A stretch of 64,000 nucleotides of DNA. Origin: Tetradesmus obliquus. Taxonomy: Eukaryota > Chlorophyta > Chlorophyceae > Sphaeropleales > Scenedesmaceae. Below the pieces are notes generated by a model, which searched no databases, had not been told where the DNA came from, and saw only the letters and a list, made by a program, of their open reading frames with translations. Where the stretch lies: contig CP126191.1 of the NCBI GenBank assembly GCA_030272155.1, positions 1,758,501 through 1,822,500 of the forward strand, in the 5' to 3' direction. This document shows positions 25,944-62,723 of the stretch, piece by piece (position 1 is the stretch's first letter; each line of letters opens with the position of its first letter). A program made the position numbers and the translations under genes.

Positions 25944-28033
25944 CTAAAACTGCTCGGCTTCCGTGGCCGCACCAACCTGCCCCTCATCACCCTGATCCAT
26001 GTCAGCCTCAGTAGGGTTGTAGTCGCCCTCTGAACCCTCGCCCAAGTCCGCCTCTGTCACCTTATAGTCTGAGCCGCCGCCTTCGTCATCGTCATCATAG
26101 TCCTGCTGCTCCTGCTGCTGCTCATTGCCGTCATCGTAGCCGCCAGCATCTTCTTGGGCATCCAGATCATCTACTTGTACATCTTCCGCCATAAAGCCAT
26201 CTGCACCATCGTCTGCTGCTGCATGCCCTTCCTCTGGCATGTCGTCATCTGCAGAACCATCAGCAGCAGCAGCAGCAGCAGAGCCCGCATGGTGCCCGTT
26301 CTGCTGCAGCTGCAGCTGCTGCATGTCCTCCGCAGTCGCGCCTGCACGCAGCAGAGTTGCAGCAAGCAAAGCACACGTCTCAGCTGCTCTGTACCGACAG
26401 GCAAGCCAGACAAGACGCAGGCGACAACATACACAAAGGCGTGTGATTCAGCTATGCCTGAATGGGTTGCAACATGGTAAGGATGCTAATGACCTGCAAT
26501 GGCAACTATAAGCCATCACACAGCTCAAGGATATTGCATCAACAAATTCGCACCTGGCGGAGGTGTGAGGATGGGGCTGGGGCCCCGCATGCCCTGCCCA
26601 AAGAACTGCTGCTGCTGCTGCTGCTGCACTTCCGGCGTCTGGTGCCGCTGCTGCTGCTGCTGCTGCTGTTGGCGATGGTGCTGCTGCTGCAGCTGGCCTT
26701 GCTGCTGCTGACTAAGCTCTTCCTGCAGCAGCTGGCTGGGTTGCTGCTGCTGCTGCGGCGGCGGCGGCAGCGCAGGCGGCTTGCCCTGCTGCGCTGCGTC
26801 TGCAGCAGCGCCGTCTGCTGCTGCTGGCTGCTGCTGCTGCTTGATGGGCTGCGGGTTTTTGATCCAGTCCTGCTCCTGCATGTAAATGTCTGACTGCAGC
26901 GCTTCCTCAAACACATTCAGCAGCACCTCCTCCTGCACCATGTATAGCAGAAGTGCATGTGAGTCCGCATGAACGCCAGAAGACAATGTGCACTGTTCTG
27001 TTCAACTACGACATAGGTGTGTTTTGGCATGCAAGACACACAGCGCGTGTCTCGCTGCTTCCGTTGTTGGCGTGTGTACAATGCTGCGACAAACCAATGA
27101 AAAGGCTCCTGTCCTAGCAACGCTGCAACTGTGGCTGCGCTGTTCTACTACTGTTGCAGCTCCACCCGCCTTTTCAAACTCGCCCAACACAGGCTTTAGT
27201 TGCCAGCGGCCTATCACAGCACGCCGTTGTACTACAGCAGCAGCCTGCCAGCGCACCGTGATGTTGTCGCTGATGCTGGTCATGACCTTGTCGAAGACGC
27301 TGCGGTGGTTGGCGGTGAGCTTGTCGGGCCGGTCCCGCATGTACAGCCAGGTGCGGCGCTCCACGTCAAAGCTGCACTCCACGATCTGACGCACCAGCAG
27401 CAGCAGCAGCACATGAAGTTAGAGTTCACCAGTGTGCAAAAGAAGTGGCTGATACAAATGGTGCGCTCCATGTCAAAGCTGCACTGCACAATCTGCAGCC
27501 AACAGATGCCAGCAGCAGCAACAGCAGCAGCACCAGAACATGGTGTTAGAGTTCAGCAGTGTGCAAAAGAAGTGTCTGAAAACAGAATGGTGAGCTCCAT
27601 GTCAAAGCTGCACTCCACGATTTGCGGCAGCAGCAGCAGCATCACATGAGGTTTGAGTTCATCAATTTGAAGTAGAAGTGGCTGAAAACAAAATGGTGCG
27701 CTCCACGTCACAACTGCACTCCACGATCTGCAGCAGCAGCCAACACATGCCAGCAGCAGCACATTAGGCTTCAAAAATGAGGCATGCGGCAGAAGTTGTG
27801 CGCTGAAGCATGCTTAGCTGATCAAAGGCCGATGCACTCGGCCACCAGCTGAGCGCATCCACCACACACAGCCTCAGCAGTGAATGTGAGGCGCATACAT
27901 GAAAATGACACAGCAGGACCACAGGAACAAACGCATGTGAAAGAGAGTTTGAGTATGCCGCTGCCATGTCAGGCTAACCGCTGCACCAGCAAGTGCCAGA
28001 TCAGTCCACATCGCTGTAGTATGAACTGCATGC

Positions 28034-28083
<50 letters not shown>

Positions 28084-28169
28084 TCTGGATGCGCTGGTCA
28101 CCTTGCCGTGCAGCGAGGCGGGGTCCACGTCAGCAGGGAACTCCACGCGCTGCTCACCCAGGCCAATGT

Positions 28170-28221
<52 letters not shown>

Positions 28222-28891
28222 CAGTTGAGATGAGCACTGATGATCACACAAAGCTGCACAACAGTCTCCGGCGCAGACACGCCAGCAACAGGCAGGTGAC
28301 AGCCATACCCTGACACTAAGACTACTCCGTAGATGTGCACGATCACATGCACAATGAATCAACCGCCTCATTCCTCACCCTGCAGGCTGAGGTGGTTGAT
28401 GTCAGCGTTGCCGTGCTTGCGCCGCATCGCGCAGTTGAGCAGCAGCCGCGGCGCCTGCCCCGGCAGCGCCGCCAGCTTGAAGTCCACGCTGTTCATGTGC
28501 CGGAACTTCCACTTGAGCAGGTGCGGGTAGGTGCGCGGCACGTAGGGGTCGTCCCACGGCTGCGGCGGCGCCAGCAGCAGCAGCAGCAGCAGGCAAGGGA
28601 ACCAGCAGCAGCAAGGAGCTTTGTAAGTTGCGATGCCCGGGCATGCCGAATAAGCAAAACGGAGAATTCAAGGGTGTCCCACGGGTGTGTGGGTGGGGCA
28701 GCAGTAGCAGAAGCAGCACACAGGTACGATCACCACCAGCAGCAGCAAGGCGCGTCGGCGCAAAGCTCGATGCGACTCGCGCTATGCGTAGCAGTACGTG
28801 TGACGCCAGTGCGCAGCTCTTACTTTGGACAGGCAGTGACTCCAGCACGAGCAGTGGGCACCAACAGCAGCGTCCCACCTGCAGGCAGAGG

Positions 28892-28936
<45 letters not shown>

Positions 28937-29516
28937 GCGCACCTGCAGGATGAGGCCGTCGCTCTCGTGGCACAGCATGGGGATGAACTGCTCCAGCAGC
29001 TTGCGCGCCTTGAACAGCGGCCAGAACTCCTTGCGCCGCACACTGCAGACCTCCAGGCCCCAGTCATACAAAAACCTGCGGCGGTTGATGCGTGTGCAAA
29101 GAGAGACTGTTGATTCGCGAGTGTGGCGTGATTGGAAGAAGCTGCGCTGCCTGGCGAATGTCATTTGTTGGCGCTGGTGCATTCGAACATAGCACGGCAG
29201 TTAAGCAAACAGACAGCACGGACGGAATTCCACGGTGGTGGCCACAAACTTCGCCACCTGCAACCGGGTACATATACTCCTATACACAGCACTGCGCAGC
29301 CGTTGCGCTGCAGCGCTGCAGCAGCTGCTGCGGGCTCACTTGGGGTTGGGGTGGCGCATGTAGTGGTCCTTCTCCAGCCCCAGGGGCCGCAGCAGCTGCT
29401 TGTCGATGATCTGGTAGCGGTCCTGCACATAATTTGCACGCAGCACAGTTCAGGGGCAGGTTAGCGCTTCAGGCCCTGAGGGCGCAACGGCAGAATCATG
29501 ACACAGCATGACAGGC

Positions 29517-29557
<41 letters not shown>

Positions 29558-29838
29558 CCTACGGACTCCACAGCGCTTGTTCCTATATCCAAGAAACGCC
29601 GTCAAAAGAGCTAACCAAGGGCTTTACAAGGAAACAAACAAAGCTAAAAACATTTCATGAACAAATGCACCAAGATGCACCGAAATGCCCCACCAAAAAA
29701 TGCACCGAGATGCCGCAATGCGTCACCTCGAAGCGCAGGTCGCTGATGCCCTCCCCCGCCAGCATCATGCAGTCGTACACCAGGTAGCGCCGCCGCTGCT
29801 TGTCGCCCGCGATGTCCACGTCATCAACCACCATCTCG

Positions 29839-29917
<79 letters not shown>

Positions 29918-30272
29918 CAGCAAACCGTCAGCACACCATGCTGCTGTTGAGACAGGGGTGCACAGCTTTGGCAAGGCAACATATGACCAGTGCTTGGTGG
30001 TCAACCACCATCTGGCCTGGCCGCAGCCGCAGCGTGTGAACACACCAACAGAGTCCAGACTATTTTGCTTGCTTGTTGAGACAGGGGTGCGCGGGCTTGG
30101 CAGGATAGCAACTCAGCAGCTGCAGCTATTCGTATGTCCACACCAACATGTTGCAACAAATCAGCAATAGAAAGGGCAGGAGCAGGATAAGATTGATGGC
30201 AACGCGCTGCAGCCACTGGTGATCCATGTTTGACAGCCTGATTGCCGCAGCCTGTGGACGGCTGCTTGTTGC

Positions 30273-30321
<49 letters not shown>

Positions 30322-30430
30322 ACCGTCCAGCAGCGTCCAGTGGTGCGGCGGGCCCACAGGGTGTGCACCAGCAGGCGCTGGCTTGGGCAGCAGCGTGGGG
30401 AAGCGCATGTGCATGCGGCGCACCTGAAGC

Positions 30431-30473
<43 letters not shown>

Positions 30474-31822
30474 TGAATCAAAAGCGGCAGACACCCGTGC
30501 AGATGGGAACAAACACACCAAGCACATACGCGCTGTGCATTTGAACGTCAGCCGGCTTTCATCAAATGCATGACCAAGTGTTCTTGCAAGCCTGCAGGTC
30601 CCCGGCTGCAGCTGGCCGCTGTGCCTGACCTAGCCACCCGCCCCGCCTCACCTCCCCCGCCCTGTCTATGAGGTACACTGAGAGCAATGAACCACACCCA
30701 GCCACCTCTGCAGCCACGCCCTGCCCCGCCTCACCTCTCCCGCCCTGTCTATGAGGTACACGCCCTCGCGCGTCAGCAGCATGAGGTACCGCGTGCCGTC
30801 AGCCTTCCACGTCACAAAGTACCTGCAGCAGCAGCAGCAGCAAGGCTGTCATTCACACAACAGGCATCCGCATCAGCAGCCGTGGTAAACTGACATCCCA
30901 CTTCGTCAAGTGGTGGTTGATGCAATGCTGCTATGCGGCACTACATCTTTGTCATGCCTTTGAACGCCTGAATGGTTCACCATGAAGTCCGCAAGGGCAT
31001 GCCAGGACATTGCACATCGCAGCTTCCAGGAGCACTGGGTCCAGTTCCCGAGATGTATGCCGGCTTGATGCAACCACCCTGCATAAATCTACAGTGCCAG
31101 CACGGCGGCCATTGTTGTATGCCAGATCACCGCTTGCGCACACCAGGCCCAGCTGGTCCAGGTCAGACTGACCAACTGCCTGTCAACAAAGAAAAATCAT
31201 CATTAATACGCTTATCTGTGACCACGCTCACCGCTTGCCGCGCACCAGCCCCAGGTTGTCCAGGTCCAGTGAGACCGGCTGGCTGCCCAGGAAGAGGTCC
31301 CCGGGGCCGCGCCCAGCCACAGCCATGTGAGGGTAGCCCTGCACCAGCTGGCCCTTCAGCAGGTTGTCCTGCGACAGCAGCAAGATTGAAAAGGAACACA
31401 TCAACCCCAAACCTTACCAATCCTGAGCTCAGCGGGCAGCCCTGCTGCAGCTGCCCGCGCAGCAGGTTGTCCTGCGGCACTGGCAGCCGTGCCAAACAGA
31501 ATGTGCAGGGATTTGCAGGCAAACATCAAGTTACAACATTGCACGACACCAAAAACATGTCAGGGAGTGTATTGTAAAGTGCACAAGTTGACAGGCTGAG
31601 GATGCATGCCAGTGGCACAGTGAGTAGACATATCAAACGCTTGCGCTACACAGCGCAGAGTTTACGCCCTGACCCTGGCAGCAACTGCAAGCGCCGCGGT
31701 CACCTGGCCCTGGATGACGTCGTACACTGTGTTGATGTAGTAGCGCGCCTCCTCCATGCACACCGGCTCACCGACCTTGTCAGAGTGCGTCATGCGCCCA
31801 CCCGCAGCCTGCGCAAACATGG

Positions 31823-31857
<35 letters not shown>

Positions 31858-34478
31858 GGCTAGGAGCGATAAAAATGCGGGCATGTCAGGTGGCAGCTGC
31901 GGCGCGCTGGGCAAGGAAAGCAGGAGCATGAGAAGGCAGCGCTGTGCTTGCTCGGTGCTTGCCATTCTTGTGTTGCGATCCACCAGTGGATGGTGGTGTG
32001 ACACCTCACTCAACCACCGGTGGACGACTCTGCCGCTGCTCAGACGCTGCTGCCACACAAAACTGCTATGCTGCTGCTGCTGCCGTATATGGCACCCGTT
32101 GTCCATGGGGTGCCAGATGGTGCGCACCTGCTGCATTGCTGCGGGGTTGATGTTGTAGCCCAGGCGCTCGTCCTCGTCCTCGTCATCGGCAGGCTTCCAG
32201 GCAGGCAGCTCCGGCGTGAGCACCATCTTGGGCCGCACCTCGTTGTGGCGCCTGCGGTTAGCAGCACAGTGAGGGTCGTGGGTTCAGCAGAATGGTTCAG
32301 GCTGGGCAGGCAGGAGAGGAGCAGGGCGTGAGCACCATCTTGGGGCGCACCTCGTTGTGACGCCTGCACTTGGCAACACAGACGGAGGCAGGTGACAGCA
32401 GAAGAAAAAGGAAGCTGAGAAGGAGGGAGATGGGCAGGGTGTAAGCACCATTTTGGGGCACACGTCGTTGTGGCGCCTGCGGTGGCAGACGCAACACGTT
32501 GTGAGGTGTTTGTTGAACGATGATGGGTAGCGAGAGAAGCAGGGCGTTGCAAAAATCACACAAGCCGGCTATGGTGGCAGGCAGATGTTGGCAGCGGCGG
32601 TGTACATGCCTGCATGCAATGCGGCAGGCGTGCTGTGCTGTGCTGTGCTGTGCTGTCTGCGCTGCGCTGTGCTATACTGCTGCTCCCCAATGGATAACTG
32701 TCGCTCCGGCCCGCACCCCACTCGTCCAGCCTACACAGCAACAGCTCCATCTCTCCATCTTTACATGTCTATCAGCTGCTGCAGCACAGCGCAGCGCACC
32801 TGAAGAGGTCGTTGATGTACTCGTGCTTGTAGATGCCGGGGTGGCGCTGCTCCCTGAAGTAGCGTATGCCGCGCTCCACGCAGTAGCCCTTGTCGGCCAG
32901 CAGCCGCATGGCAGCGCACACAATGATGAAGCCTGCAGCGGCACAATGGCAGTTGCCAAGGTGAGCATCTTGTGTTGAGTGATTAGAAGCTGCAGCATTT
33001 GTCTGCCAGCAGCCGCATGGCAGCACACACGATGATGAAGCCTGCAGCGGCGGAAAGACAGTTGCAAAGATGCACATTGCTGAAGATGCATAATGTTCCA
33101 GGATTGCCTGAAACCCTTGTCGGCCAGCAGCTGCATGGCAGCACACATGATGCTGAAGCCTGCAGTGGCACAGGTGTTGTTGTACAGGTGCTACAGGCAG
33201 TTTGTAGCGGAAGTCTCAAGTCAGCGGTAGCACAGCAAGATTGCCAACAGTGCGGCCTTGCAGCGCAGCAGGTGCAGCTTGCAGATGAAACAGCAACCTG
33301 GCAGCCACCTCTCAGCCCTCTTAATGTGTCTCACTGCTCTGCTCCAGCCAACGCACCTGAGCGGTTGAAGCCGTGCGTGCAGTGCACCAGGATGTAGAAG
33401 GCGGGGTTGGCTGCCATGCACTTGCGGATCTCCCACACCGCCATGTTCACCGCCAGCGGCTCCGGCGACACGCCACGCCCGCGGCACGGCACCTGCAGCA
33501 CAGCAGCAGGCACAGGCAGGCAGTAGTTTGACCATAACTTGACCATAGTTTGACCAGAGGTTGACCGCCAGCGGCTCCAGCGACACGCCAAGCCCACGCC
33601 TGCGGCACGGCACCTGCAGCACAGCATACCAGCAGGCAATGATACAACCATATCTTGACCATGAGTTGACCATGTGTTGACATGGCCTGGCAATAGGTTG
33701 ACCTGAAGCGCAGCGTCGCTGCTTCACGCCAGAACAGCCACCCACAGTTGCGCTGATGCTGCCTACGCTGCATGGCTGGCGCTGAGTGTTGCTTCGTCTT
33801 GCCAGGGCTGACCTTGACGTATCTCACGCTGTTGTCAGTGATGACTTGCGGGTCGTAATACTTGTCGCTGTTGGACAGGTCCAGCACCATGCCCACCTGC
33901 CCCCCCTGCGGCAGCAGCAGCAGCAGCAGCGGAGGCAGCAGGAGCGGCAGCCGCTTAAGGATTGCGAGAAAGGTATCGAGGACTGTGACTGCAAATCATC
34001 CAGGCGCATGTGTGCTGCACTTGCATCGCTTGCTGCTGTCAGGAACCAAACCGGCAGGCGGCTGGCTGTCAAAAGACGGCACCTGGTGCAGTTGCTGCTG
34101 ATGTGGAGTTGTTTCGACTGCCCAATGCACCATTGCTGCCGCGACAGCAGCAGGTGTGCTGCTGCTTTCTGCCCCTCATGCCTCATGCACAGCCACAACT
34201 GATCTGCGCTATACTGGCAGGGCCGCCTGCCGCCTGCTGCCCTGCTGCCGCAGCTGTTGGATCCACTGCTGCTGTTGCGACTGCAGGGCACCGATGCACC
34301 TGTGCAACACACTCAACGTGCTGCTGCCAGCACTGCAGCGGCTGCTGCTGCTGCTTATGTGGCCCTGATAGCTCCCTTCCCTCTGTTTTGGCTTCTTGCC
34401 CCCTGCCTCACCAGTTGCTGCCATGCATGCCTCCCGTCCTGCTGTGCTTGCTGCCTCTGCTGCTGCTGCTCCTGCTAC

Positions 34479-34511
<33 letters not shown>

Positions 34512-35789: not shown

Positions 35790-37286
35790 ATGAAATGTTT
35801 TCTTACTCTAATGTTGGCAGTGTGCTTATGGGCAAGCACGACGGCCATTTCAGACAAGGTAAGCTTTCTGGAGCCTTCCATACAGCAGACGCGGCAAACG
35901 CACTGCACATCCTGACCAGAGAGCTGGCTGCAGGGAGTCATTTACCTTGATGACCTCACATTCGACAAGGTGGGTTGGCGCTGGTTTGTGCGCTCTTCAG
36001 TGGTCAGTTGCAGGGCAGCGTTGGACAAGCAATTGCTGCTCAACCTGCTTTTCTGTTGCTGCAGGTGGTGGATCGCAGCAGGGATGTTCTGGTCAGGTTC
36101 GACAAGGAATACCGTGAGTGACATCATCCAGGCTCTCACTACTGCCTGTCTGGCAGAGCTGCAGCAGAAACAATAGCGGTGCCAGCATCAGTGGCACAGC
36201 TGCTGCGGCTGCTACTGCTGCTGCTGCATCACGAAACAGCAATGGATTGAGCGTACACATCAAAACCACTATTATCCTGATCAACACAGCAACACTGTTG
36301 GGGCCAACACTTCATCATCAACAGTATCATTGCGAGCCAGCGCCCCACTCAGCCGCTGCCATCAGCCATCCAACTCATTGCGTCCCATCCGCTACCTTCC
36401 CCTCCACTCCTACCACCACCACAAGTACAGTCTCATCGCAGCAGCCTGCGCAGCGCTGCACAAAATGAATGACTTCTACATGATACACTGCCTTTTGCTA
36501 GTATCCGTAACCATCAACCCTCACTCCTCACTCCTCACCGCAACTGCTGTCACACTGTACACACACATGTCACCGCAGCCTGGGGTGACGAGCATGACGC
36601 GTTCAAGGAGCTGGCCACCACTTCATCATCAACAGTATCATTGCGTGCCAGCGCGCCCTATTCCGCCGCTGTCACCAGCCATCAACACTTCATGTAACCT
36701 GCTGCCTTGCCCGCCGCTCCCACCACCACCACCATCACTCCTCACTCCTCACTCCTCACCTTAACTGCTGTCGCATGTATCGCCGTAGCCTGGGGTGACG
36801 AGCATGACGCGTTCAAGGAGCTGGCTACCACTGTGGGCGAGTCAGACACCAGCCTGCTGGTGGTAGGGGTACCCATCTCCAACAGCGACACCTACCCAGT
36901 CAACACCAAGCTCTCGGTGAGTGCCAGCCAGTGCAGCAGCTTTACAAAGTGTTGAACCGGGATCTTCAAAACATTAGACCAGCAGCAGCGACACCTACCC
37001 AGTCAACACCAAGCTCTCAGTGAGTGAGGGAATGACCAGCAGCAGCAGCGGCAGCTGGGTATGTACCTGCCAACAAACCAAGCTGTCAGTGAGTGTTGAG
37101 AAGAGATTGCATGCTTGGCATGCAAGCAGGGTATTGCTTCGTTACCAGAGTAGTGTGGGCTGGTCCCGAAAAGTGTTGGGAGTGCCAGTTGCTGGGTGGG
37201 GTGCCTGCGGAAATGATGCTGCTGCCGTCACAAGAGCCTGTGCAAGGTTTGTGCACATCTGCCACTGCCTCACAACAAGCTTGCTT

Positions 37287-37453: not shown

Positions 37454-38977
37454 AGGCGCGCTACGGCCTGGTGGCTCTGAAGGACGAGGGCTTCCCCCGC
37501 TACAAGCTGTTCAAGAAGGGCGCAGACACCACCAAGCCGCTCGACTACACGGGCGACATGAAGCAGGCCAAGGAGCTGCTGCGCTGGACGGTGGAGCAGA
37601 CAGGCGTGTTCATCGGCATCAAGGTGCGGCTGTAACAGTTTTTTTTTGAAATTGAGGCCTGTGCCTGCTGCAATGCGGCATTGCTGGGCTGCAGTGGTGT
37701 GTGTTCATCGGCATCAAGGTGCGGCTGTGGCTGTGAGTGCTATGAGTAGGGTGTGCGGCATCAAGGTGCGGCTGTGATGTTTTTCTATTAGTAGGGTTTG
37801 TGCGTGTGCTGCAGTGGGGGTTTGCTGGGCTGCAGGGGCGTGTGCACAGCCGCATCAAGGTGTGCGCGATGCGGCTACGCAAGTGCCGCTGACATGCAGC
37901 CTATGTGCAGCCTGCGTGCGTGAAGCCTGGGGCAGCTTCCCTTGGCTTGTTTTTGCACAGCAGTGCTCGCAGCACTGCAGTTGAAGTACCACGTTCGACA
38001 GCTGGCATTGTCAAGAACACCAACCACATCTCCATGTGCAATTCCATTCATGCACACAGCTGTGTGCTTACATAGGGTTGGTTGATGACAACTTTGCTGT
38101 CAACCACTGCTTGTTAATCCCTGCAGGGCCAGGTGGAGGAGCTTGACGGCCTGGCGCACAGCTTCATGACTGCATCAAGTCAATGACAACTGCTGGTCAG
38201 AGAGGTTGAGAGAGGCTGCTCATGACTGTTGTTGTTTTGCGAACATGTTTACTGTGCAGGGCCAGGTGAAGGAGCTTGACGGCCTGGCACACAGCTTCAT
38301 GGCAGCAGCGCCAGCGGACCGCAAGCCGCTGCTGGAGCAGGCGCAGGCTGCAGCAGACGCCGTGGACACCAGTTCAAACCCCGATGCCGGCGGCTACGTC
38401 GAGTACTACATTAAGACCATGCAGCGCGTGCTGGACAAGGGCGATGCATATGTGCAGCAGGTGCGGCTGCATGTGGAGTTGCTGTTGGCATATGTTGGTA
38501 TGTTGGCGTTATTGACATCCAGCGCATCTGCTGATGGTGGGGTGCTGATAGGTGGCTGAGGCAGCTTCCTTGCGAGTGGCTCTGGGCAGGCTGCTGGACA
38601 GTTGTCAGCCCAGCAGAGCTCCTGCAAGTCAATGCCAGTCGAACCTTGTCCTGTTGTGTGGTGCTTTGGCCGCCTGATATACCACCTTCCTTGCTACAAG
38701 TCAGTCTACACTCAGTCCTCTCCGCAAGCAACAGTCAAATTTACCATCTTGACGCCAACAGTAGCTGCGATCATCACAACTTGCTGCGCTGCCGCCTGCT
38801 CAACCCCCAAACCCCATTGTATAACATCCATGTTGCGGCTTGCAGGAGACGAAGCGGCTGGCCAAGATGAGTGAGGACAAGGCTGTGGCAGCAGCCAAGC
38901 GTGAGACCTTTGCGTGGAGGCTCAACGTGCTGGCTAGCTTCAAGGCACCAGCAGCAGCAGACAAGGGCGAGCTGTGA
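35790..38977 (+). CDS. ERP29: ERp29-like ER lumenal protein (thioredoxin-fold N domain plus ERp29 C domain)
   Basis: Folding/escort factor of the ER lumen, by homology. Exons 35790-35858, 35934-35969, 36064-36112, 36789-36916, 37456-37623, 38260-38460 and 38846-38977 sum to 260 residues, close to the usual ERp29 length. Residues 1-20 are a signal peptide (MKCFLTLMLAVCLWASTTA). The N domain shows LDDLTFDK, VRFDKEYPWGDEHDAFKELA and YTGDMKQAKELLRW. There is no CxxC, so no redox activity is expected. The helical C domain starts at GQVKELDGLAHSF and includes YYIKTMQRVLDKGDAYVQQE. The C-terminus ADKGEL ends in KGEL, a plausible KDEL-type retrieval signal (human ERp29 ends KEEL). Introns between exons 3 and 7 are full of exon-end copies. 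Confidence 0.92.
36516..36640 (+). repeat. Upstream copy of ERp29 exon 4 start
   Basis: cctcactcctcac, then AG and PGVTSM-frame text: cctggggtgacgagcatgac plus gcgttcaaggagctggcca recurs at 36788-36832. A companion block at 36306-36420 recurs at 36618-36720, so a segment of roughly 200-310 bases was duplicated. Confidence 0.88.
36985..37105 (+). repeat. Two downstream copies of ERp29 exon 4 end and donor
   Basis: ctacccagtcaacaccaag, ctctc and GTGAGTG recur at about 36990-37027, and more decayed at about 37060-37097, after the true exon end at 36916. Confidence 0.88.
37402..37455. repeat. (CTG)17 directly forming the acceptor of ERp29 exon 5
   Basis: The triplet run ends as CTGCAG|GCG, so it takes the place of the polypyrimidine tract. 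Confidence 0.95.
37697..37875 (+). repeat. Three downstream copies of ERp29 exon 5 end and donor
   Basis: gtgttcatcggcatcaag plus gtgcggctgt of the exon end recurs at about 37700-37730, shorter at about 37757-37777, and weaker at about 37850-37875. Confidence 0.85.
38120..38187 (+). repeat. Upstream copy of ERp29 exon 6 start
   Basis: TGCAG then GQVEELDGLAHSFMT recurs ahead of the real GQVKELDGLAHSFMA at 38260. The copy runs into a stop (TGA) after 19 codons. Confidence 0.9.
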
Positions 38978-40341: not shown

Positions 40342-43300
40342 TCTAGTAGGCTTGGTTGACCAAACAGCTTGATGCTGTTGGCGCCATCGCCTGCAGCAGC
40401 AGAGCACCCGAAGGCAGTCTTTGAGAGCGTAATAGTTTGATGCAAGCCACCACTGCACGAGCCTTACACGGGCGGCATTGATGCCGACACTGTGCATCCT
40501 TTGGCCACTGACACTGGTGGCTGCACGCTGTACATTGAGCCGCATGTCTAGCCGTGCCTCCAGACTACACAAAGACTCACTTTGTACCCACAGCCAAGCA
40601 AAAGGGCACACCAGGCGGCGGCAGCACACGCCCTTTGTGACAACAACACCAAAATATCCATCATAAAGGACTAACATCGTGCATATTGTGCGCAGACCCT
40701 ACCTGTAGCAATCAGCCCCTGCGCTGACCAGTCCACTGTGAAGATGCAGCGGCTGTGATGCCCGCTGATGCATGCCGCCAGGCTGCAGTGCGGCTCCGGT
40801 GGGCAACCCTCGCTCCACTCCACACTCCACACACGCAGCGTGCAGTCGTCACTCACAGAAGCCAGCTTGCGGCCGTCCCTGCTGAAAGCTACTGACCAGA
40901 CTGTTGAGCTGTGGCCAACTGCAGCACCTGCATTAGTGAGATAGTGATGCCAGCAGAAGTGTGAGTTTAAATCGAAATTAGAATGATGACATAAGCGCTG
41001 ACACACATGGGACTTTGTATCAACAAGGGAAGTGTTGCAGCAACTGCAGGGATACTGCAGCCGAGAGATGCCTCCCGCTGCTGTACATGCGCACACGGGC
41101 AAGGCTAGCTGTGCCACGGCACACCCGCTGACACACCCTTGCTGTATCTCATGCCTGCCAACTTGCAAACATCATCTATTATCAACATGCTTACACACAC
41201 AGCTGCCAGTCTGGTGGGATGCAGCATCCAGTCAACCCCATCTCAGGCAGCAACCGCACCGTCTCAACAGACACTGCCCCTCACCCTCGAGAGTTAGCAC
41301 CCAAAACTCAACCTATCCAGCCGCACTCTACCCGCACTGCCCCGGCCAGCTGCCGCCCTCACCCTCAAGCGTCTGCACGCACACCCAGCCAATCCAATCG
41401 CATTCTACCCATCTGGTCTCACCCTCATTCTCACCCTCCCCCCCACCCTCGAGCGTCTGCACGCACACCCAGCCAATCCAACCGCATTATACCACAGCTG
41501 GCCTCATCCCCCTCACCCTCTCCCTTACTTTTAAGCGTCTGCACGCACACCCAGCCAATCCACCCACACATCATCTGCACATCTAGCCCCCCATACCCCT
41601 CCCCCTCACCCTCGAGCGTCTGCACGCACACCCAGTCCGCCTCGTCGTTGGCCCACAGCTTGATGCTGTTGTCGTAGCTGCAGGAGGCCAGCAGCTCGCG
41701 GCTGGGGTGCCACGCGATGCTCTTCACATCCTGCAGGGCACAGCTGGCATGAAGGTGAGCCATACTGTTGAGCCTCTGTATGGTGCGCGCAGCACAGCAT
41801 CACAGATATGACGTGCTTATGGGCCGCTTTTGATGGAGCTGGCGGCTGGGGTGCCACGCGATGCTCTTCATATCCTGCAGGCCACAGCAGGCATCAGTAT
41901 GGCGTGCAAACTTGGTGTGCGAAGCAAAGCATCTCGAAGATTACGTGGTGATGCGGCTGGGTTTGGGGTGTCACGCAATGCTCTTTACATCCTGCAGGGC
42001 GCAGCACATGTGCGTGTAGTGCGTCAGCATGGTGTGCGAAGCAAAGCATCATTCGAGTTGCGTGTGCTTATGGGCCGCTCTTGATGCGGCTAGCGGCTGG
42101 GGTGCCAGGCTATGCTCTTCATATTCTGCAGGGGACAGCAGGCATAAGTACGGCGTGCAAACATGGCGTGCAAGGCAAAGCATCCATGGGATCAACGTGC
42201 TTATGCGCCACTGCCGATGCAGCTTGCGGCTGGGGTGCCACGCGATGCTTTTCATATTTTGCGGCCACAGCAGGCATGAGCCATACACCTGATGTGTGCG
42301 GTGCACGAAGCCAAGCATCCCTGAGATTGCGTGTCGATGGGCCGCTGTTGATGAGGTGGCCTGTGCAAGCGTACGCGAGATGATGCAGGGGGTGGTCCTG
42401 CACCGCCTACACAAAGCATGACAGCAGGAGCTAGCAGCACACAGCGCACATCCGCCACAGCCATGCCTTCACCACAGGCATCACTACTTTTCAAACACTT
42501 TTACAATTCTACACACCCACCCACTGACCCACGTCATAACGAAGACAGTGACATCCCACCTGGCTGTGGCCGTGCTTCACGTCCATGCAGTCGTACTCGT
42601 CTCCCAGGCCCCGCTCCCAGAACCACACCGACTTGTCGCGCCCGCAGGTTGCCAGGAAGTTGCCGCAGGGCGACCAGGCCACTGCCTTGACCTCGTTCTC
42701 ATGCCCCTCGAGCTTGCTGATCTGGTGGTTTAGGGACGTAGGGCAGTGAGTGAGCAAGCAGCAAATGATGTGGCTTGCAGCGTGTTGGTTGGGAGGATGA
42801 TCACAAGTGGTGCTGCAATGAGTGGCGGCAGGACGGCTGATAACCTACTGCAGTTTCATGAGCCCAGACATCATCCACTAGGCTATGCTTGCTGCTGGGT
42901 GTTTTGTAGAACAGTCGACTGTCTGTCCAAGTGCTCTTGTGCTAACTCATACTGCTGCTGCGTCAACGAGGTGAACGTGTTCCTCAAGTCAAGCCTTGGC
43001 CGCCTTGCACACGGATGTCAGACCTAGCAGCAGCCCCGCACAACTGAACTGCATCTGCTGCACTTCCAGTGCGTTCACACAGTAGACCCCACGTTCTCTG
43101 CTTCTGTGCAGCACTGGCAGCACCGCCAGCAGCAGCGTGTTACCTCTTCCCAGATGCCACCCTGTAGCTGCCATATTGCTGTTGTGCCATCAAAGCTAGC
43201 TGTAGCCAGATGAGTGCCGCCAGGGCTCCAGCAGCAGCACCGTATCGACTTGGTGTGCGTGTCCTCCAGAACAGCAGCACAGCGCCAACCTCTCCCCTCT

Positions 43301-53772: not shown

Positions 53773-53972
53773 TGTGCTTTTCACTGGAAACTCCAACTGT
53801 TCTATACAATGGTAGATGCTTCTATGCACATGCACGAGTGGCAGCTGTCGCAGCGGCTGTCAACAACCACATCATACTCTGCATCTGCTTGCCAGCTGCA
53901 GCAGTGGCTGATCACTGCCAGCTGGAGCTGCAGCATAACATGGTTGCTGCTCTGCCCTGTTGCAGCAGCAGT

Positions 53973-54493
53973 TCACTCACTGCCCGTCAGCCATGCCGGG
54001 TCAAAGTCTGGGTCAACAGTCTTCTTGTACCACTTCGACTTGACCTTCAACAGCGCGGCCTGCGCATACACAACTAGGCGATTCAGCCGTTTGACGGTTG
54101 CCTGACAGAGTGGCGAGCTGCCTGGGTGGGTTCCTAAAGCATACCCGTGGAATGTTTCGACCGGACATGCATGACATAATGCTGATCCTGGCCAGCAGGA
54201 CCGCAGAGCAGTTCATGCACCAGTTGACTGAAAATGCACACCTCTGGGTTGCCTGCAGGCAGCTCAACATTGCGCAGGTGCGCATTCCACTCCTCCTTGC
54301 CATCAAAATCAAAAGCCCTGCAGGAAAACGCTGAGATTACTAATGCTGCCGCTACCTGGCATCAAGCTAGCCTGCGGAATCCCAGGCACCAGATACACAT
54401 GCTGGCCTGCTGCAGCGCAGCTGCTGTGGTGTGCGTCCGCACGCGTTGAACCACTCACTTGAAGGCAGAAACCTTTCCAGTATCTACACCCAT
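53973..54493 (-). CDS. Small 65-residue protein of unknown function
   Basis: Three exons, 54493-54459, 54317-54242 and 54059-53973, join in frame (35+76+87 bases) from an ATG to a TGA. The product is soluble and highly charged: MGVDTGKVSAFKAFDFDGKE, a Trp-Asn-Ala-His segment, LRNVELPAGNPE, KVKSKWYKKTVDPDFDPAWL, ending GSE. The clean splice sites and amphipathic, low-repeat composition argue that it is real. The family was not recognised. It sits 201 bases from the TMEM33 start on the same strand and is divergent from the Nudix gene (263 bases between starts). The stop overlaps a possible donor (CA|GTGAGT), so a longer C-terminus is possible. Confidence 0.62.
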
Positions 54494-54756
54494 TGCTCCA
54501 CAAGCGTGCTCCTGCAGCACACCAGCAACAGCTACTACAGCAGCACTTGCTGCTGTCCTGCCTTGCTGCTGTTCAGGAGCAACAGGAATCGATGATCAAG
54601 GACTCGACAGCGATAGATCACACGTGCAGAAAAATACCGAAGTCTCGCAGGGCGCAGAGAACTATCCGTGGTTGGTTTGTGTGTTATCCGCGTTCTAGTC
54701 ACGTCAAGCCCTTTTGAAGACCACACGTGGCTGGCGTCAGGTGCTGTTGTGCAACA
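54494..54756. promoter_or_regulatory. Divergent promoter region, 65-residue protein / Nudix gene
   Basis: 263 bases between opposite start codons. No specific elements assigned. Confidence 0.5.
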
Positions 54757-56813
54757 ATGTCTTTTCCGGTTTCTGCAGTCGCCGCTCCGCAAGTGCTCGG
54801 CTGTGAGGATCACTCTCCTACAACAGCCAAGTGGTTGAAACTGCTGGTGTTGAAGGTACGGTCGCACGACAGCAATACAGCATCAGTGAGCAGACACAAA
54901 TCAATCTGAACACTATCACAATTGATTTGCGGGCTGCCACCTGCAGTGCAAGGACGAGTCTGGCAGGTGAGGGCCAGGCAGGGTTTGCTGCTGGTTGAAC
55001 TGCTGCTCAGCCCCTGCAACATGCACTCACAGAGTCTGACTGGTGTCTGCCTGCAGGGAGTACAACTGGGAGTACGTTGAACGTGTGACAAAGTACAGGG
55101 AGACAGACGGAGTGGCTGTATTTGCCAGGGTAGGTGCCCTGAGTGTCTTGCCTCCAGATCAGCAACAAGCAAGAGCAGCTTACTCAGCAGCGCCTAGGAA
55201 GAGCAGCGGGCGCCTTAGTAGAAAACGGATGCAACAGCCGTTACACACATCTGTGCAGTATTTGTCAACAACACTCTTGCTGACCTGATTCTGCAGGTGG
55301 TCGCCAAGGATCAACCAGATCGCCTGCTTGTGATTGCACAGTGGCGTGCACCTCTTGACACCTTTGTGCTTGAGGTGCGAGCAGTGGCGTCTGCCGTATG
55401 GGCTGTGCTCTGTGCATACCTGCTGCTCTGGTATGCTGCATGCTTCTCGTGATGGCCGGGTTGGCTGCGAGTACCTCCAGGTCCGCTCAATGACATGTCT
55501 ACTGCATGCAATCAGCTGCTGGAGTCAGCAACTGCAGGTAGGGCAGATGCAGTCAGCAGACGCAACAACTTGCACAGCATTCACACGTGTGCACATAGAG
55601 TTTGTATGGTCGCTTGCCTACTGATTGACTCCTTGTTGCTGTTGCCCCGCCGATGCTGCAGCTGCCGGCCGGCATCATTGAAAAGGGCGAGACCATTGAG
55701 CAAGTGGCTGTACGGGAGCTGCAGGAGGAGACAGGTGCGGCTTACAAGGCTCATAAACACAACAGCGGTTGTGAGCCAGCATCTGGCGTGTCGTAACGAT
55801 GCTGCAGCTGCAACCCTTAGCCGCACCCATCTATGGCGCCATGGCGTCTGCACCCACACACTGATTGCATCGCCTCGCAGGCTGGGCTGTGTGGTGGTGG
55901 CTGCGCAGCGTGATGTGCTGTGCTGACAGTGTTGTGTTGTGCCTGCAGGCTACACTGGTGTGCTTGAGCGCGTCACCCCAGAGGCGCCAAACGACCAGGG
56001 GCTGACCAACAGCTGCCTCAACGTAAGCACTCACGGCTCCGCCAGCACTGCTGTCCAGCAGTTGCAGCATAGTATCAGCTTGCAGAACAGCAGTATTCAA
56101 GGGGTAGAGCAAAGCTGCAGCAGCATAAGCCATCCATGCTTGCAGGAAATCAAGTGCAGCAGGCACCAGTCTGGCAGGAACTGTAGCGTCGCCTGTGGTG
56201 CTCCGAGTGTGCCCCATCAGAAATGCTCAACATGAAACAAGTGCACAGCGTGTTTTGCATGCTGATGGCTGTGTTGTTGATTGCTGCTGCCTGCAGTTTG
56301 GGTTTGCCACTGTTGACGCTGCAGCGCCAGAGAACGCCAACCCACAGCCCTCGCCAGAGGTGAGCCGAGCGCTGCTGCGCATGCAGGCATGCACATCCCT
56401 GTTCATAGGCCTATTGAGCTGTGCCTGCAAGGCAGCTTTCTTCAGCACCGAATTGTAGCATCTTAAAGCTTTGCATGTTGCCGCACTGCCTGCCGGCACA
56501 TCACGGCACTCGTGCTGCATCTGCACGTGTCACATGCACCCGCTGCACTGCGCACATGCCACACCATGCCATAAGCCCGCCACTGGCCGTACTATCGACG
56601 CTGGCTTATGTACTTGCTGTCGCCCGTGTTTCTTAATTGCTGCAGCTGGGTGAGACGCTGCAAGTGCTGCTGCTGCCCATCAAAGGCCTTGCAGGCACAC
56701 TGCTGCAGCTGAAGGCGCAGCACAGCTGGGCGATTGACAGCCGCTTGCTGGCTTTTGCCTTGGGTCTGGACTACGCAGCCAGCATCAGCAGCAACCCCGC
56801 AAGCAGCAACTAG
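54757..56813 (+). CDS. NUDT5: Nudix hydrolase, ADP-sugar pyrophosphatase (NUDT5-like)
   Basis: Hydrolyses ADP-ribose/ADP-sugars, by family. Exons 54757-54855, 54947-54966 (20-base microexon), 55057-55129, 55297-55374, 55662-55734, 55949-56022, 56297-56359 and 56646-56813 give 215 residues in one frame; human NUDT5 has 219. The microexon (CKDESG) is needed to keep frame between LKLLVLK and REYNWEYVER. The Nudix box is built as GIIEKGETIEQVAVRELQEE followed by TG, matching Gx5Ex7REUxEExGU with the metal-binding Glu residues. DGVAVFAR, QWRAPLDTFVLELPAG and NDQGLTNSCLN are typical of the ADP-ribose pyrophosphatase subgroup. No targeting peptide is evident. Confidence 0.9.
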
Positions 56814-56898
56814 CTGTATTGCTGGACTGCAACAAGCTTCATTTTCATTGCTTACCCTTCTAGCAGGTTATTTGCAAGAACTGCGGCAGCCTAGCAAG

Positions 56899-58011
56899 AT
56901 GAGCGGAGACAGCGCAGTCGAGGTCCTGGATCCTGCTGCTGCAGTCGCATCCATTGTCGATCCCCTGCCGACCCCAGAGGAGATTGCAAGCGCAGCAGCA
57001 GCTGCAGCAGCACACAGGCCCAGCAGCCTTAAAGAGGAGAGTGCTGCAGCAGCCAGTTTGAAGGGCCTGGGCAAGGGCCTGGGTGGTGCAGGCCTGGCAA
57101 GCAAGCGCAAGTCCAAGGGCGGCAGCACCATAAGTGCTGCCACAGCACCTGCTGCACTCGCTGTGCGCAGGGACCTGGCAGCACCCAGCGGCGGTGGCGC
57201 TAGGGGCAGCAGTGCAGGGCCATCCAGGGCTGGAGCCGCAGCAGCCGCAGCGGCGGCTGCTGGTGGTGCTGCGGACGGTGGTGCGGCTGCAGGGACGGCA
57301 GCGTCTAGCGGCAGCGGGGCAGCAGGCAGGGTGCTTCAGAAGGAGGCTGATGGTGCGCGCAGCTTCAATCTGAAGCTGTCGGATGACTCGCTGGACAATG
57401 AGGAGAATGAGGAGGAGGAGTGGGAGTCTGCCAGCACAGATGAGGTGAGCAGCAGTTGAGGTGCAGGGGCCGAGCAGCTGACATATGCGTAGTGTTCTGC
57501 GGAAGGCATCTGTGCGGCATGCAGTAGCTGGCAGCTGTGAAGAGCAGGATAAATGTTGTCAGTGCCAAAATCAGCAATCTTGAACCAGATGCATCAGAAC
57601 ATGCAAAGCTGGCATGTCAGCATGTGGCCAGGCACCACTGTGCTCATGCCTGTGGGATCTATATAAAGCATGCAAGCCCGTGCGCCTCATCGTCCGTTGT
57701 AATGCCCGACTTCACCATTTTGTGCCTGCTGTGCACTGCAGGACGTCATTGAGCTTGACCTGACTGGCGAGGCGCCTGTGCCGCGTGGCGCCAAGGCTGC
57801 CGGCCGCGCCAGCAGCAGCAACGGCCCGGCAGCAGGCAAGGCAGCTGCAACAAGCGTCAGCAGCAGCAGCAGCCCAGCAAGCTGGCGGGAGTGGGTTGAG
57901 GAGTCCTTTGACTCCTCTGCCCTGCTGCTGGCTGGTGGGGTGCTGGCGGTGTGTGCTGGTAGCCTGCTGGTGCTAGGTGGTGTGGCCTGGACGCGCAGCA
58001 GGGGCAGCTGA
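56899..58011 (+). CDS. Tail-anchored acidic protein of unknown function
   Basis: Exons 56899-57444 and 57742-58011 give 271 residues; ATG at 56899 lies 85 bases after the Nudix stop. The N-terminal part is Ala/Gly/Ser-rich with a basic KRKSKGG patch. An acidic stretch follows (DNEENEEEEWESASTDEDVI, spanning the intron), then more low complexity. WREWVEESFDSSALLLAGGV leads into one C-terminal hydrophobic helix ending SLLVLGGVAWTRSRGS. A single helix with a short basic tail suggests tail-anchoring in ER, mitochondrial or plastid outer membrane, which is inference. No domain was recognised. Intron readthrough would stop after four codons. Confidence 0.6.
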
Positions 58012-58629
58012 GCCAGTGATAGCTCGGCATATTGCCGCTTCTGTGTGGTGCCAGGCTTCGCAGCTGTGCCTGGTTGGGACGTGGCAATGACAGGTGGAGG
58101 AGAGTGTGATTGGGTGGCGTCTGAAGGGCCGGCTGCAACGTCAGCAGTAGCACAGGTGTGTACGAAGGGCCCAGGAGCGCTTTGTCTGCCAATGGTGGTT
58201 GCAGGCTGAGGCAGCTGCAGCGTCAATCTGCTGCCGGTAGGTTGCGGGTGAACGGGACGCTGTTAGCACAGTTGTAAAGGACATGAGGTGAATTACTGCG
58301 GCTTTGTTGTTCTCAGCTTCCCGAAGCGGATCCACGGGTCGCCAGGCCGGTGTACAGCAGCAGCAGTAGCAGTACAATTGTCATGTGCATCTCACGAGCT
58401 ACAAGCGGCTGCTCGAAAGCGTTATGTAAGGACTTGAGCTAAGTAGCAGACGCACGCTGCAATGACTTGAGTGGACTTCTGTTACTGACACGAGTACAAC
58501 TGATCAATTCCTCCAATTGCCGTTCCCTAGAGCTCGAGAAATCCTTTAGTCGCAGTATATCAATGATCTTGATTCAAGAAATTTACCGACGTTGCTAAGC
58601 ATAAGATATTCTCGGTCGTAGGAGCAAGA
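58012..58629. promoter_or_regulatory. Upstream region of the PPT gene
   Basis: Holds the 3' untranslated region of the tail-anchored protein gene and the promoter of the translocator. More AT-rich from about 58400 onward. No further gene. Confidence 0.5.
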
Positions 58630-60170
58630 ATGCAGTCGGCGCGGGGCACTGTTGCCCAGCGGTGCAGTCTCCTATCGCCACGCATAGCGCATATTGCTCC
58701 CAGGGTAGCACAACCTTCTAGTGTGAGGCTGCAACGCCAGCCTCAGCTCTTGCAGCCCGTGAGTCAGCAGCAGCAGGTTGCAGCAGCAGGTCTAGCAAGC
58801 AGCAGGCAAAGCAGCGATGAGCCAAGGGCAAGCAGCGTCGTCTGCCATGCAGCAGCAGCAGATGCAGCAGGTGAGGCTTGCTGGCCTTTCTGAGCAGCTG
58901 CTGCAGGATGACACTGTCGGCATCCAACTATTTGACATGCTGGAGCGCACAGCTTGCAGCGCACAGTTTGTAGCGGGCGAAACCTGTTGCAGCGTGCAAC
59001 CGCCGCCATTTCAACATTATTTGTTTGCTTTTCTGATATCGAGCTATGCATTGCACCTTAGCTTTGGTGGCTGCAGTCAAGATCATGCAGAGATGGTCAA
59101 CCAACAGTCCACACACAAATCCAGCAGCGGTGCTGGTTGTAGCTCCAGATGTGGCACAGCTGCGAACAGCAGTATGGCTGCTTGTTTCTTTGCAGTTGGC
59201 ACAGCTTTCTGTGCAGGCACTTGATCATGCATAGGCCTCATAGCTAAGGATGTGTCATTGTATCGTGTTTGTGCACATGCAGCGTCAGATGACAAGCCAG
59301 TTGGCAAAGTGGCAGGCTTGGTAGGGCTGGGAGCACTCTTTGCTGGCTGGTACCTGGCAAACATCTACTTCAACATGTAAGCAGCAGCTTGTGGCAATCA
59401 TCTAGGCAGGCAGGGAGGCAGGCAGGCAAGCAGGCAGCTGTATGCAGCTAGCCAGCAAAGTCCTCGGCGTATTGGTGGGCGCTGCATGCACCATGCAGCG
59501 CCATTGTTATGCCAGCACACGGTCCTGCAGGCCTGCCAACGGGATGTTGCGCCGCGCTGCATGGCAACGGGTCCATTCACGAGTGCCAGCACAGCTGTTC
59601 ATTTCTCCAGCCTGCGATAATGTCGTTCTCTGCCAACCTGCACGCCTGCATACAGCAGGCCACATGCTGCACGCGGCCATCTCCTGCCTTCCACACTCAC
59701 CCATGACGTTGTGCACTTGTATGCATTGTCTTGCAGCTTCAACAAGACGCTGCTGAAGACGTTCCCCTACCCTCTGTCAATCACAAACATCCAGGTGAGC
59801 AGCGCCAGCACACATTGCAGCATCATGCTGTGCCCCTAGCAGCAGCACACGCAACAGCGCAGCCATGTGGTGGTGAGTGTGGACATGCATTGCAGATGCA
59901 ACTTGTTCATTGCCCAGGCATGTCAACTGCAGCACGAATAGGTGGGTTGCGGCATTGCGGCGGCATTAGAAGCATTCGCGCTTGCTGTATGCCAGCCAAT
60001 GGTTCGTGCTCCTGCACTCTTTTGCATCACATTAACAAAGCTTCCTGCCTGCTGCCTGGCTTGTCTTGCTGTATGGTCTTTGTGTTGCAGTTTGCGATCG
60101 GCATTGGGCTGTCGTGTCTGTTCTGGCTGACAGGCGTTGTGAAGCGACCGCAGCTGGATGCAAAGACGGT

Positions 60171-60202
<32 letters not shown>

Positions 60203-61324
60203 GTGACCATGGAAGCAGGGATGGCTGCAAGTGCAGACACGGTACTGGGCGCATGTAGCTTGCTCAGCAGCGCTGCCAGCTGCAGCACCAGCAGCAGCGC
60301 CCACAGAGGCAATCTCGGCAGCTGCTAACACTATGTGGAAGACACACTGTCATATCTGTGCCGGTGGCAGGGGTGCTGTCCACCGCAAGCAGCGGCAGAG
60401 GCATGCTAGTTGAGCACACATTTGTAGGTGCTACGCCCCCAGCGCACACCACTCACCCATGCTTCACACTGAACTGCTTTGTGCATTGCTGCTTTTGCAT
60501 TTGCTGCTGCTGCTGCTGCTGCCGCAGATTGCGTCTGTGTACCCGCTGGCCATCATCCACGTGCTGGGCAACGTGCTCACGAATGTCAGCCTGGGCAAGG
60601 TGGCGGTCTCCTTCACACACACCGTCAAGGTGCGGCCATGGGGCTGTGCTGTTGTCTTATGGTCTTGATTGGTGGCGCAAAGAGACGGCTGCAGCGTTGA
60701 CTCAGCCCATCAGCAGCGCCTCTGTGCTGTGGCTACAGCGAGAGCAGCGTGCAGCTGCCTGCAAATGCAGCTTGACAGCGTGGTGGCTGTCTTTTGTACC
60801 AGACAGGCAGCAGTCGTGAAAGCTTGATGAGATGAGGGCGTCGAGCCTGCGGCACAGCACAGCAAGCAACTGGCGCAGGTGCGCCATGTTGGCGCGGCTG
60901 CTATGCTGCTCTGTGCGCAACATAAGGCCGCGGCAATGTCCCGCCGGTTCCTGTATCATAAAGCAACCAGCGTCCTCTCTCAAGTCTTCATCAACTGTCT
61001 CGCAAGCATTCTCATGTGTTTTTCACCTGCTTTGTTGTGCAGGCCATGGAGCCGTTCTTCTCTGTGATCATGTCGGCCATCTTCCTGGGTGACGTGCCGC
61101 CCGTGCCTGTGCTGGTGACACTCATCCCCATCGTGGGAGGTGTGATCATGGCCAGCCTGAGTGAGACAACCTTCAACTGGACTGGCTTCCTGGCAGCCAT
61201 GTTCAGCAACATCACCTTCCAGAGCAGGAACGTGCTCAGCAAGAAGTTCATGATCAGCAAGGTGGGAAGTTTGGCGGCGGACTGGGAGGTTTCGAGCGCG
61301 AAGTACGAGATGAGGACGCAATGC

Positions 61325-61371
<47 letters not shown>

Positions 61372-62723
61372 GTATCTGGTGGCTGCAAGCCTCCGTGTTT
61401 GCTCCACCCGTCATTTGTCGTTGATTGTCACATGTTCATGGTACTTCAAGTTGCTCACTGCTCACATGTGACCGACTGCCTCCTGCCTGTGTGTGGCTGT
61501 GTGTGGCTGTGCGGCTGTGCTGTTGGCGTGTCTTGTGCAGGGTGCGCTGGACAACATGAACCTGTTCCAGGTCATCACCATCATGGCCTTCTTCATGCTG
61601 CTGCCGGTGTCCATCCTCATCGAGGGCCTGCCCATCCTGCCACACAACCTGGCAGCAGCGGTGAGCTGCGATTACAGTGTAGATAAGAGAACAGTGTTTG
61701 CTACCGTTTGTCAACATATGTTTTTACATGTGTGTGCTGGGGTCCGTCGACCGTACCAGTAAGGGACACATGCATGCAGGTGCTCGGATCGCCCCCATCC
61801 TGTACCGTGTGCTGTCTCATGCTAGCTGTCGAGCTGCCCAATCCCTGTTGCTCCATGACGTTCCTGCACTGCCAACCCCCTGCCTTGCAGCGCCACGTCA
61901 GCACACCCATACCTCAGTCTCAACCAATGTTGTCTGCTGTGCTATGTTATGTGTGCCGTGAATCGCTGTCAGCACTGCCTCCCCAACTCATGTCTGCTGT
62001 CATGCCATGTGCATGCATGTTCATGTGCATTGCTGCAGGGCCTGGACAGTCTAGCACTGCCACCCCACAGGCTCTCACATCATCGTAACTTGTCTACTGT
62101 GCTATGCCGTGTGTGCATTCACTGCTGCAGGGCCTGGACAGCGCAGCGCAGGCAGACCTGTTCCGGCGACTGCTGTCTGCCGGCATCTGCTTCCACGGCT
62201 ACCAGCAGCTCTCCTACATGATCCTGTCGCGGGTGACGCCGGTGACGCACAGCATCGGCAACTGCGTGAAGCGCGTGGTGGTCATTGTGGCCAGCGTCAT
62301 CGCCTTCCAGAACCCCATGTCCACGCAGAACGCCATGGGTGAGGCCCGCTCTGCGCTGTTTTTTATTTTATGGAATGCCTTGTTGGTAGCCTGTTACATG
62401 TGGCTTTGGTCCTGCTGGTGCTGTCCAAAGAGCCTCTGGGGTGCCTGGTGCTGTTCCAGTAGTGCCTGTGACAATGCATACATCGAGCAGCTGTATAGCG
62501 AGCCAGAAGAAGACGCCGGCGGCACTTTGCACCTTTTCTCCAGAGCTGTTACCTGTGTGACTTGTGACTGCTGAGCGTGCAGATGCTTGGACTGTAGTGA
62601 AACGGTTGCTGGCTGCCCTGCGCTTGGAACTGTCCCGCAGGTACCGCACTGGCCATGTTTGGAGTGTTCCTGTACTCCCAGGCAAAGCGGAAGTACAAGG
62701 GCAACAAGCCCAAGGCAGCATAA
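58630..62723 (+). CDS. PPT: Plastid phosphoenolpyruvate/phosphate translocator
   Basis: Exchanges phosphoenolpyruvate for phosphate across the inner plastid envelope. Nine exons (58630-58870, 59283-59376, 59737-59794, 60091-60168, 60528-60629, 61043-61261, 61541-61660, 62131-62338, 62641-62723) give 400 residues, typical length. The first 80 residues are Arg/Ser/Gln/Ala-rich without acidic residues until late, a transit peptide. The mature part shows [97 protein letters not shown] and [20 protein letters not shown]. The [16 protein letters not shown] region fits PPT rather than triose-phosphate translocators (ARVAPLTHAVGNVLKR type). It ends [13 protein letters not shown]. Confidence 0.93.
60169..60201. 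repeat. (CAG)n run starting inside a PPT donor
   Basis: GTGAG is followed directly by about ten CAG units. The same intron ends with a CTG run before GCCGCAG at 60527. Confidence 0.92.
61325..61369. repeat. (CAG)15 run in PPT intron
   Basis: Lies about 65 bases after the donor at 61261. Confidence 0.92.
62028..62065 (+). repeat. Upstream copy of PPT exon 8 start
   Basis: TTGCTGCAG then GGCCTGGACAGTCTAGCACT repeats the acceptor and first codons (GLDSAA) of exon 62131-62338, 94 bases ahead of it. Confidence 0.8.

Follow-up and report, generated by a model that had tools for sequence, protein, structure and literature searches.

Introns of the alga Tetradesmus obliquus (Chlorophyta) carry decayed copies of the edges of their neighboring exons, and the sequence evidence assembled here makes it moderately likely that these introns grow longer step by step as segments of ∼80–160 bases straddling the exon-intron junction are duplicated in tandem over short distances. 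We studied such copies, here called echoes, in a stretch of 64,000 bases (the window; positions 1758501–1822500 of contig 1 in an assembly of 17 contigs and 104.66 Mb) and in 31 kinesin-gene stretches from the one genome, which together make up a sample of 308,100 bases. The anatomy of the echoes, their polarity, the preference for junctions in the sample, the arithmetic of intron length and the genuine tract at the outermost acceptor are all observed directly.

Results

Exon edges recur in the adjoining intron on the matching side

The sample was picked by gene family (kinesin; the kinase and aldehyde dehydrogenase families were also searched for the choice of stretches) and is not a random one. 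Exons were taken from a custom-written hidden Markov gene finder that was seeded with 63 kinesin segments and then self-trained; it predicted ∼580 exons and ∼540 introns with the donor CAG/GTGAG and the acceptor CTGCAG/G (slash, splice site). Echoes mislead gene finders: 35 predicted exons were echo-like, and pruning these together with 59 predicted exons of <20 bases left a set of 486 introns. Local direct repeats (score of at least 20, at most 600 bases apart) amounted to 153 pairs in the sample, whereas ∼13 would be expected on the basis of unrelated loci and inverted pairs numbered 9.

We then searched for the first or last 30 bases of each exon at a match of at least 24/30, with low-complexity and short exon ends removed. 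Exon starts had 41 copies in their own upstream intron, at 27 of 465 acceptors, and 1 copy in the downstream intron; no copy was found in 392 kb of random introns. Exon ends had 26 copies in their own downstream intron, at 16 of 461 donors, and 4 in the upstream intron, 3 of which sit in one complex array in stretch L021; again, 380 kb of random introns held no copy. Against these 67 exon-edge copies stood 2 exon-middle copies, both in one array in stretch L019. The Fisher values for these contrasts were 1.2e-10, 3.1e-4 and 2.4e-12, although copies inside one array are not mutually independent. The preliminary description of the window, which rested on at least five genes, had reported that exon starts recur upstream and exon ends downstream; the echoes are thus real and extend beyond the window. 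It had also named in advance two comparisons that could refute it, edge against middle (67 to 2) and one polarity against the other (41:1 and 26:4), and on the scale of this sample rather than of the genome both came out in its favor. The scan thresholds miss weak or complex cases, and the CIAO1 donor array, the capping enzyme donor echo and the copy in the PPT gene were read by hand.

The 43 echo junctions are confined to 8 of the 32 stretches, and the other 24 have none. Stretch L013 has 9 among 30 junctions, L019 8 among 22, L021 8 among 26 and the window 8 among 188, and none of 2000 random draws was equally uneven. The junctions are concentrated in a few genes, those of L013, L019, L021, L001 and L010. 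In a kinesin gene on contig 2, one stretch of the Pfam model (about positions 262–289) was matched four times in succession, and at the DNA level the exon start is present as six echoes and the working copy. At L019 3078–3951, the working copy of a kinesin exon start lies in one open frame of 387 codons with its six echoes, and the gene finder therefore called the whole a single long exon. A complex higher-order array occupies L021 1594–3073, with steps of ∼107–176 bases, a super-unit of 294 bases and recurring exon-like pieces, and is omitted from most counts. The L021 array (1500–3500) and the plus-strand array of L019 were excluded from the flank and spacer, codon bias by class, step and coding consequence analyses and from parts of the tract scoring, and all of L021 was excluded from the count of mismatches by codon position.

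Local repeats appear to prefer junctions

Because only the exon-contiguous copy lets the reading frame run on and is hence retained, strict polarity is a consequence of junction duplication and not separate evidence for it. Polarity is likewise predicted if tandem duplication strikes at random everywhere, the junction cases staying visible through the constrained exon copy and those within exons being purged. We compared the number of arrays at junctions with a null in which units of 90–140 bases are placed uniformly in array-free introns, which gives 43–59% junction arrays. A first count (score of at least 26) found 48 arrays, comprising 41 junction, 2 intron-only, 2 exon-internal and 3 unassigned arrays. 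When one copy of a pair had to enter the exon by at least 10 bases, there were 38 junction, 2 intron-only, 2 exon-internal, 3 mixed and 3 unassigned arrays, so that 38 of 40 were at a junction (P 2.8e-7 at a null of 0.59).

Because exon copies decay less, exons and the exon parts of echoes were masked for a second search at the same score. Of 22 assigned arrays, 18 contain an echo or extend into an exon and 4 are intron-only (1 more was unassigned), one of the four, in stretch L024, sharing its intron with an echo array; the P values are 0.0002, 0.002 and 0.02 at null shares of 0.43, 0.50 and 0.59. A looser count of 20/22, which admitted arrays up to 25 bases from an exon, was too lenient and is superseded. 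The junction preference thus survives the detection control, less strongly. The repeat counts are not exhaustive: a local repeat at L012 8678–8863, with a step of 100 and beginning directly after an exon end, was seen only with exons masked and is absent from the unmasked searches.

These counts bear on random duplication, which we hold to be rather improbable. In its favor, the strictly noncoding count includes 4/22 intron-only arrays and exceeds the highest null only at P 0.02, and mismatches by codon position (below) roughly fit a neutral echo compared with a constrained exon. However, arrays remain linked to junctions in both the masked and the unmasked search, and the coverage by local repeats, 0.088 in introns and 0.087 in exons, falls to 0.027 outside predicted genes.

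Probable stepwise growth of introns on the exon side

Among the 57 steps of the systematic list, the median is 125 bases and 50 lie within 92–160, mostly 94–144, the other seven being 176–302. Donor steps read by hand in the CIAO1 and capping enzyme genes are 78–84, and there is therefore no strict step floor; the range of 60–135 given earlier has to be replaced by these values. The exon part of an echo is mostly 26–68 bases long. Introns with echoes number 39 of 486 (∼8%), and ∼6% of the intronic bases in the sample trace to exon-edge copies. The median intron length is 455 with echoes and 238 without (P 5.6e-11); after subtraction of the echo units it is 233. The earlier suggestion of intron growth by duplication across the junction is supported by this arithmetic.

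At positions −15 to −7, the tract score of the 19 outermost echo acceptors that retain AG is 0.83 ± 0.34, compared with 0.75 ± 0.07 for real acceptors and −0.67 ± 0.07 for intronic CTGCAG-like non-sites. The length arithmetic and the genuine tract alike point to the outermost splice site as probably the original one, with growth of the intron on its exon side. Judged by gene models and protein homology, the exon-proximal copy appears to be the working splice site throughout; the preliminary description had allowed either the outermost or the innermost copy this role.

An alternative is that the echoes are themselves at work, as alternative splice sites or small coding exons under selection. 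The nearest echoes retain AG in 20/23 cases and GT in 12/13, and mismatches between echo and exon by codon position (48/786, 27/779 and 101/774) show a third-position bias that is present in every echo class. However, in 22 of the 36 arrays splicing at the nearest echo would introduce a stop, in 11 it would only shift the frame and in 3 it would insert sequence in frame, and steps do not favor multiples of three (16/57). Overall, we consider working echoes very unlikely. A coding constraint on the echoes was also considered and rejected, the bias being common to all classes; a rough estimate based on base composition suggests that it is what a neutral echo set against a constrained exon would show.

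Spacers and sharp boundaries

A simple tandem duplication copies the intron part of the unit as well, which should therefore recur before the outermost copy. For this comparison 33 of the 36 arrays were kept, those with too short or too long flanks being dropped. The intron part recurs at the outermost copy in 13/33. In 12/33 its recurrence is rejected, no similarity being seen where a spacer decaying at twice a generously estimated exon-part divergence should still be visible (P<0.01); 8/33 are undecided. Spacers are homologous in 13/21 inner neighboring pairs and in 10/35 outermost pairs.

Several of these results weigh against junction-straddling duplication. The similarity of 12/33 outermost copies extends no farther than the splice site. 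Further, the identity of the exon part and the similarity of the spacer are uncorrelated (rho 0.06, P 0.65, 56 pairs), mean exon-part identity being 0.925 with spacer homology and 0.921 without, and a single age per unit therefore does not fit. The plain profile of repeat coverage around junctions has no peak, but it pools long echo introns with short ones and includes low-scoring exon-exon matches, and event-level counts were used instead. Finally, the conversion that we invoke below to reconcile the two parts of a unit is itself a conjecture.

The same results suit a different process, in which the exon end alone, including its splice signal, is copied into the neighboring intron, either through a template switch at words of the splice consensus that match or through a process linked to splicing or exon chromatin. 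Such copying would account for the sharp outer boundary, for spacer homology being rarer in outermost than in inner pairs, for the independence of exon part and spacer and for the restriction of exon-middle copies to one array. However, 13/33 outermost copies do have a duplicated spacer, and the tract at the outermost site is a genuine one. Moreover, the length to the outermost site should then be one spacer short, yet it is already normal: the median is 267 without spacer homology and 240 with it, compared with 238 where introns lack echoes (P 0.12 and 0.63). On balance, we judge copying bounded at the splice site to be unlikely. Two other accounts of the sharp class were disfavored, namely deletion of the outer spacer, the core length not being shortened, and the landing of an exon fragment beside a chance CTGCAG, the outermost site having a real tract. 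Recombination between two diverged haplotypes was likewise considered but not retained as an explanation.

In a blast search of the spacers against the 308 kb, no shared family was found; beyond other copies within an array, the only matches were CTG-rich or scored low. Two spacers searched genome-wide each matched only themselves and are therefore not mobile elements. An inserted element as the source of the spacers is thus rejected for those tested. That mobile intron-like elements (introners) carry the repeats is suggested by the splice sites within the repeats and by the jumps in intron length, but with no common spacer family found in the sample and with each array having its own exon sequence, we regard this explanation as extremely improbable.

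Window genes and their echoes

The GC content of the window is ∼57%, and its introns are CTG/CAG-rich; together with the genes present, these features fit a chlorophycean green alga. For five genes, exons were hand-picked from the gene-finder predictions with echo-like ones omitted; all five translate to open proteins, and the CIAO1 model misses its first exons. Pfam identified an mRNA capping enzyme (E 1e-51), ERp29, a TPT-family protein (PPT) and a 3'-5' exonuclease. The fifth protein has WD40 repeats by Pfam and matches PDB chain 3fm0, "Protein CIAO1" (E 1e-62), which ranks second behind an unspecific WD-40 repeat protein. The pattern is visible by eye in the capping enzyme and CIAO1 genes (Table 1). 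The earlier naming of five genes with echoes was borne out for capping enzyme, CIAO1 and ERp29; the exonuclease copy lies outside the interval then described, and the copy in PPT is weak and the only one found by hand across its six exons.

Table 1. Exon copies and echoes in the window (window positions)
Feature	Position	Strand	Remarks
Donor echo of 3'-5' exonuclease exon 10096–10248	about 10325..10386	+	step 138; outside the interval first described
Capping enzyme exon (C-terminal domain), working copy	27257..27385	-	gene model; mRNA_cap_C E 5.7e-18 (assembled protein); acceptor at high-coordinate end
Echo 1 of start of capping enzyme exon 27257–27385	27463..27492	-	step 107
Echo 2 of start of the same exon	27594..27621	-	offset 236
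Echo 3 (outermost) of start of the same exon	27698..27727	-	offset 342
Donor echo of capping enzyme exon 30735–30822	30652..30677	-	step 83; own GTGAG
Acceptor echo of capping enzyme exon 31232–31368	31434..31471	-	step 103
Acceptor echo 1 of capping enzyme exon 32128–32251	32325..32363	-	step 112
Acceptor echo 2 of the same exon	32444..32476	-	offset 225
Acceptor echo 1 of capping enzyme exon 32800–32932	32999..33041	-	step 109
Acceptor echo 2 of the same exon	33114..33159	-	offset 227
Acceptor echo of capping enzyme exon 33357–33492	33566..33613	-	step 121; initially predicted as additional exon
Acceptor echo of ERp29 exon 36789–36916	36579..36622	+	offset 210
Donor echo of ERp29 exon 36789–36916	36986..37019	+	step 103
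Acceptor echo of ERp29 exon 38260–38460	38127..38168	+	step 133; spacer 38169–38259 matches only itself genome-wide
Four donor echoes of CIAO1 exon 41610–41730	41285..41555 (upper limit approximate)	-	exon-like ends 41529, 41447, 41363, 41285; steps 81, 82, 84, 78
CIAO1 exon, working copy, echoes at both ends	41610..41730	-	
Four acceptor echoes of CIAO1 exon 41610–41730	41837..42258	-	exon-like starts 41874, 41991, 42125, 42258; steps 144, 117, 134, 133
Weak acceptor echo of TPT-family (PPT) exon 62131–62338	62039..62062	+	18/24 bases; step 92

A minisatellite-like array with units of ∼60 bases (also 119 and 178) lies at 13035–13490 in a predicted intron and is the clearest such array in the window that touches no predicted exon. 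The window also has very many CAG/CTG trinucleotide runs, some of them directly before acceptors.

Discussion

Intron lengthening is usually attributed to transposons and small insertions. For the introns studied here we propose instead that a segment of ∼80–160 bases straddling the junction would be duplicated in tandem and that the copy contiguous with the exon body would stay the working splice site, since the reading frame continues only from there. Left in the lengthened intron with its splice signal and usually 26–68 bases of exon, the older site would turn noncoding and decay, and renewed duplication of one unit would produce the arrays. The events may be tandem duplications at the DNA level, for example by fill-in and joining at staggered breaks or by template switching, with one end usually within the exon. 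To accommodate the spacer results, short-tract conversion from the exon may keep the exon-derived part fresher than the spacer, and we lean to old duplications in which that part has been refreshed from the working exon. Nevertheless, this scheme accounts for neither the sharp stop at the splice site nor the junction preference. It is a tentative possibility that junctions are hot spots for short-range copying bounded at the splice site, so that introns are ratcheted from their edges, and not from the interior, in steps of ∼125 bases at strongly gene-dependent rates; such a boundary would imply that a change in DNA is guided by splicing, nascent RNA or exon chromatin. If junctions are indeed preferred targets, echo introns record earlier positions of splice sites, and one can test whether splicing or exon chromatin is linked to the duplication of nearby DNA.

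The preliminary description knew of no named system of this kind. This holds for the repeated mode of growth, in that searches of an open-access library, judged by title or abstract opening, yielded no report of introns growing through repeated echoes of exon edges; it does not hold for the single event, which has one precedent in potato (discussed last). Paired-nick duplications in plants offer another DNA-level route to short tandem duplications. Intronic minisatellites are head-to-tail arrays within introns; unlike them, the arrays described here are tied to exon edges and vary between genes. Small tandem duplications also arise via fill-in at breaks with 3' overhangs, a DNA-level route introduced as giving insertions of <100 bp in an account whose available text does not mention splice junctions (PMC8355091).

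Like introners, as described in the accessible part of PMC9860276, echo units bear splice signals and alter introns in many genes; unlike introners, the tested spacers share no family sequence. With the model of intron gain by tandem genomic duplication (Rogers 1989, cited in PMC3443670; Drosophila cases in PMC2891723) the echoes share a short duplication within a gene, of which the copied stretch is spliced out and the frame kept. According to the available text of these sources, however, the model relies on an AGGT within the exon and its product is a new intron, whereas here only 5 of the 36 exon parts contain AGGT and the intron that becomes longer already exists.

The closest known system is the potato RdRp gene, a single published case with the same geometry. 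As reported in the accessible part of that study (Ma, Lan and Niu 2016, PMC4974935), a tandem duplication crossed the boundary between the first intron and the second exon and inherited the putative branch site, tract and 3' splice site; this one event gave rise to a new intron via a cryptic donor, with a gain of coding sequence. In T. obliquus, the gene models instead have the echoes inside one lengthened intron and the protein unchanged, with no new intron made (core of 233 compared with 238). Further, in contrast to the potato case, they occur on both donor and acceptor sides, form arrays of up to six echoes and are found in many genes.

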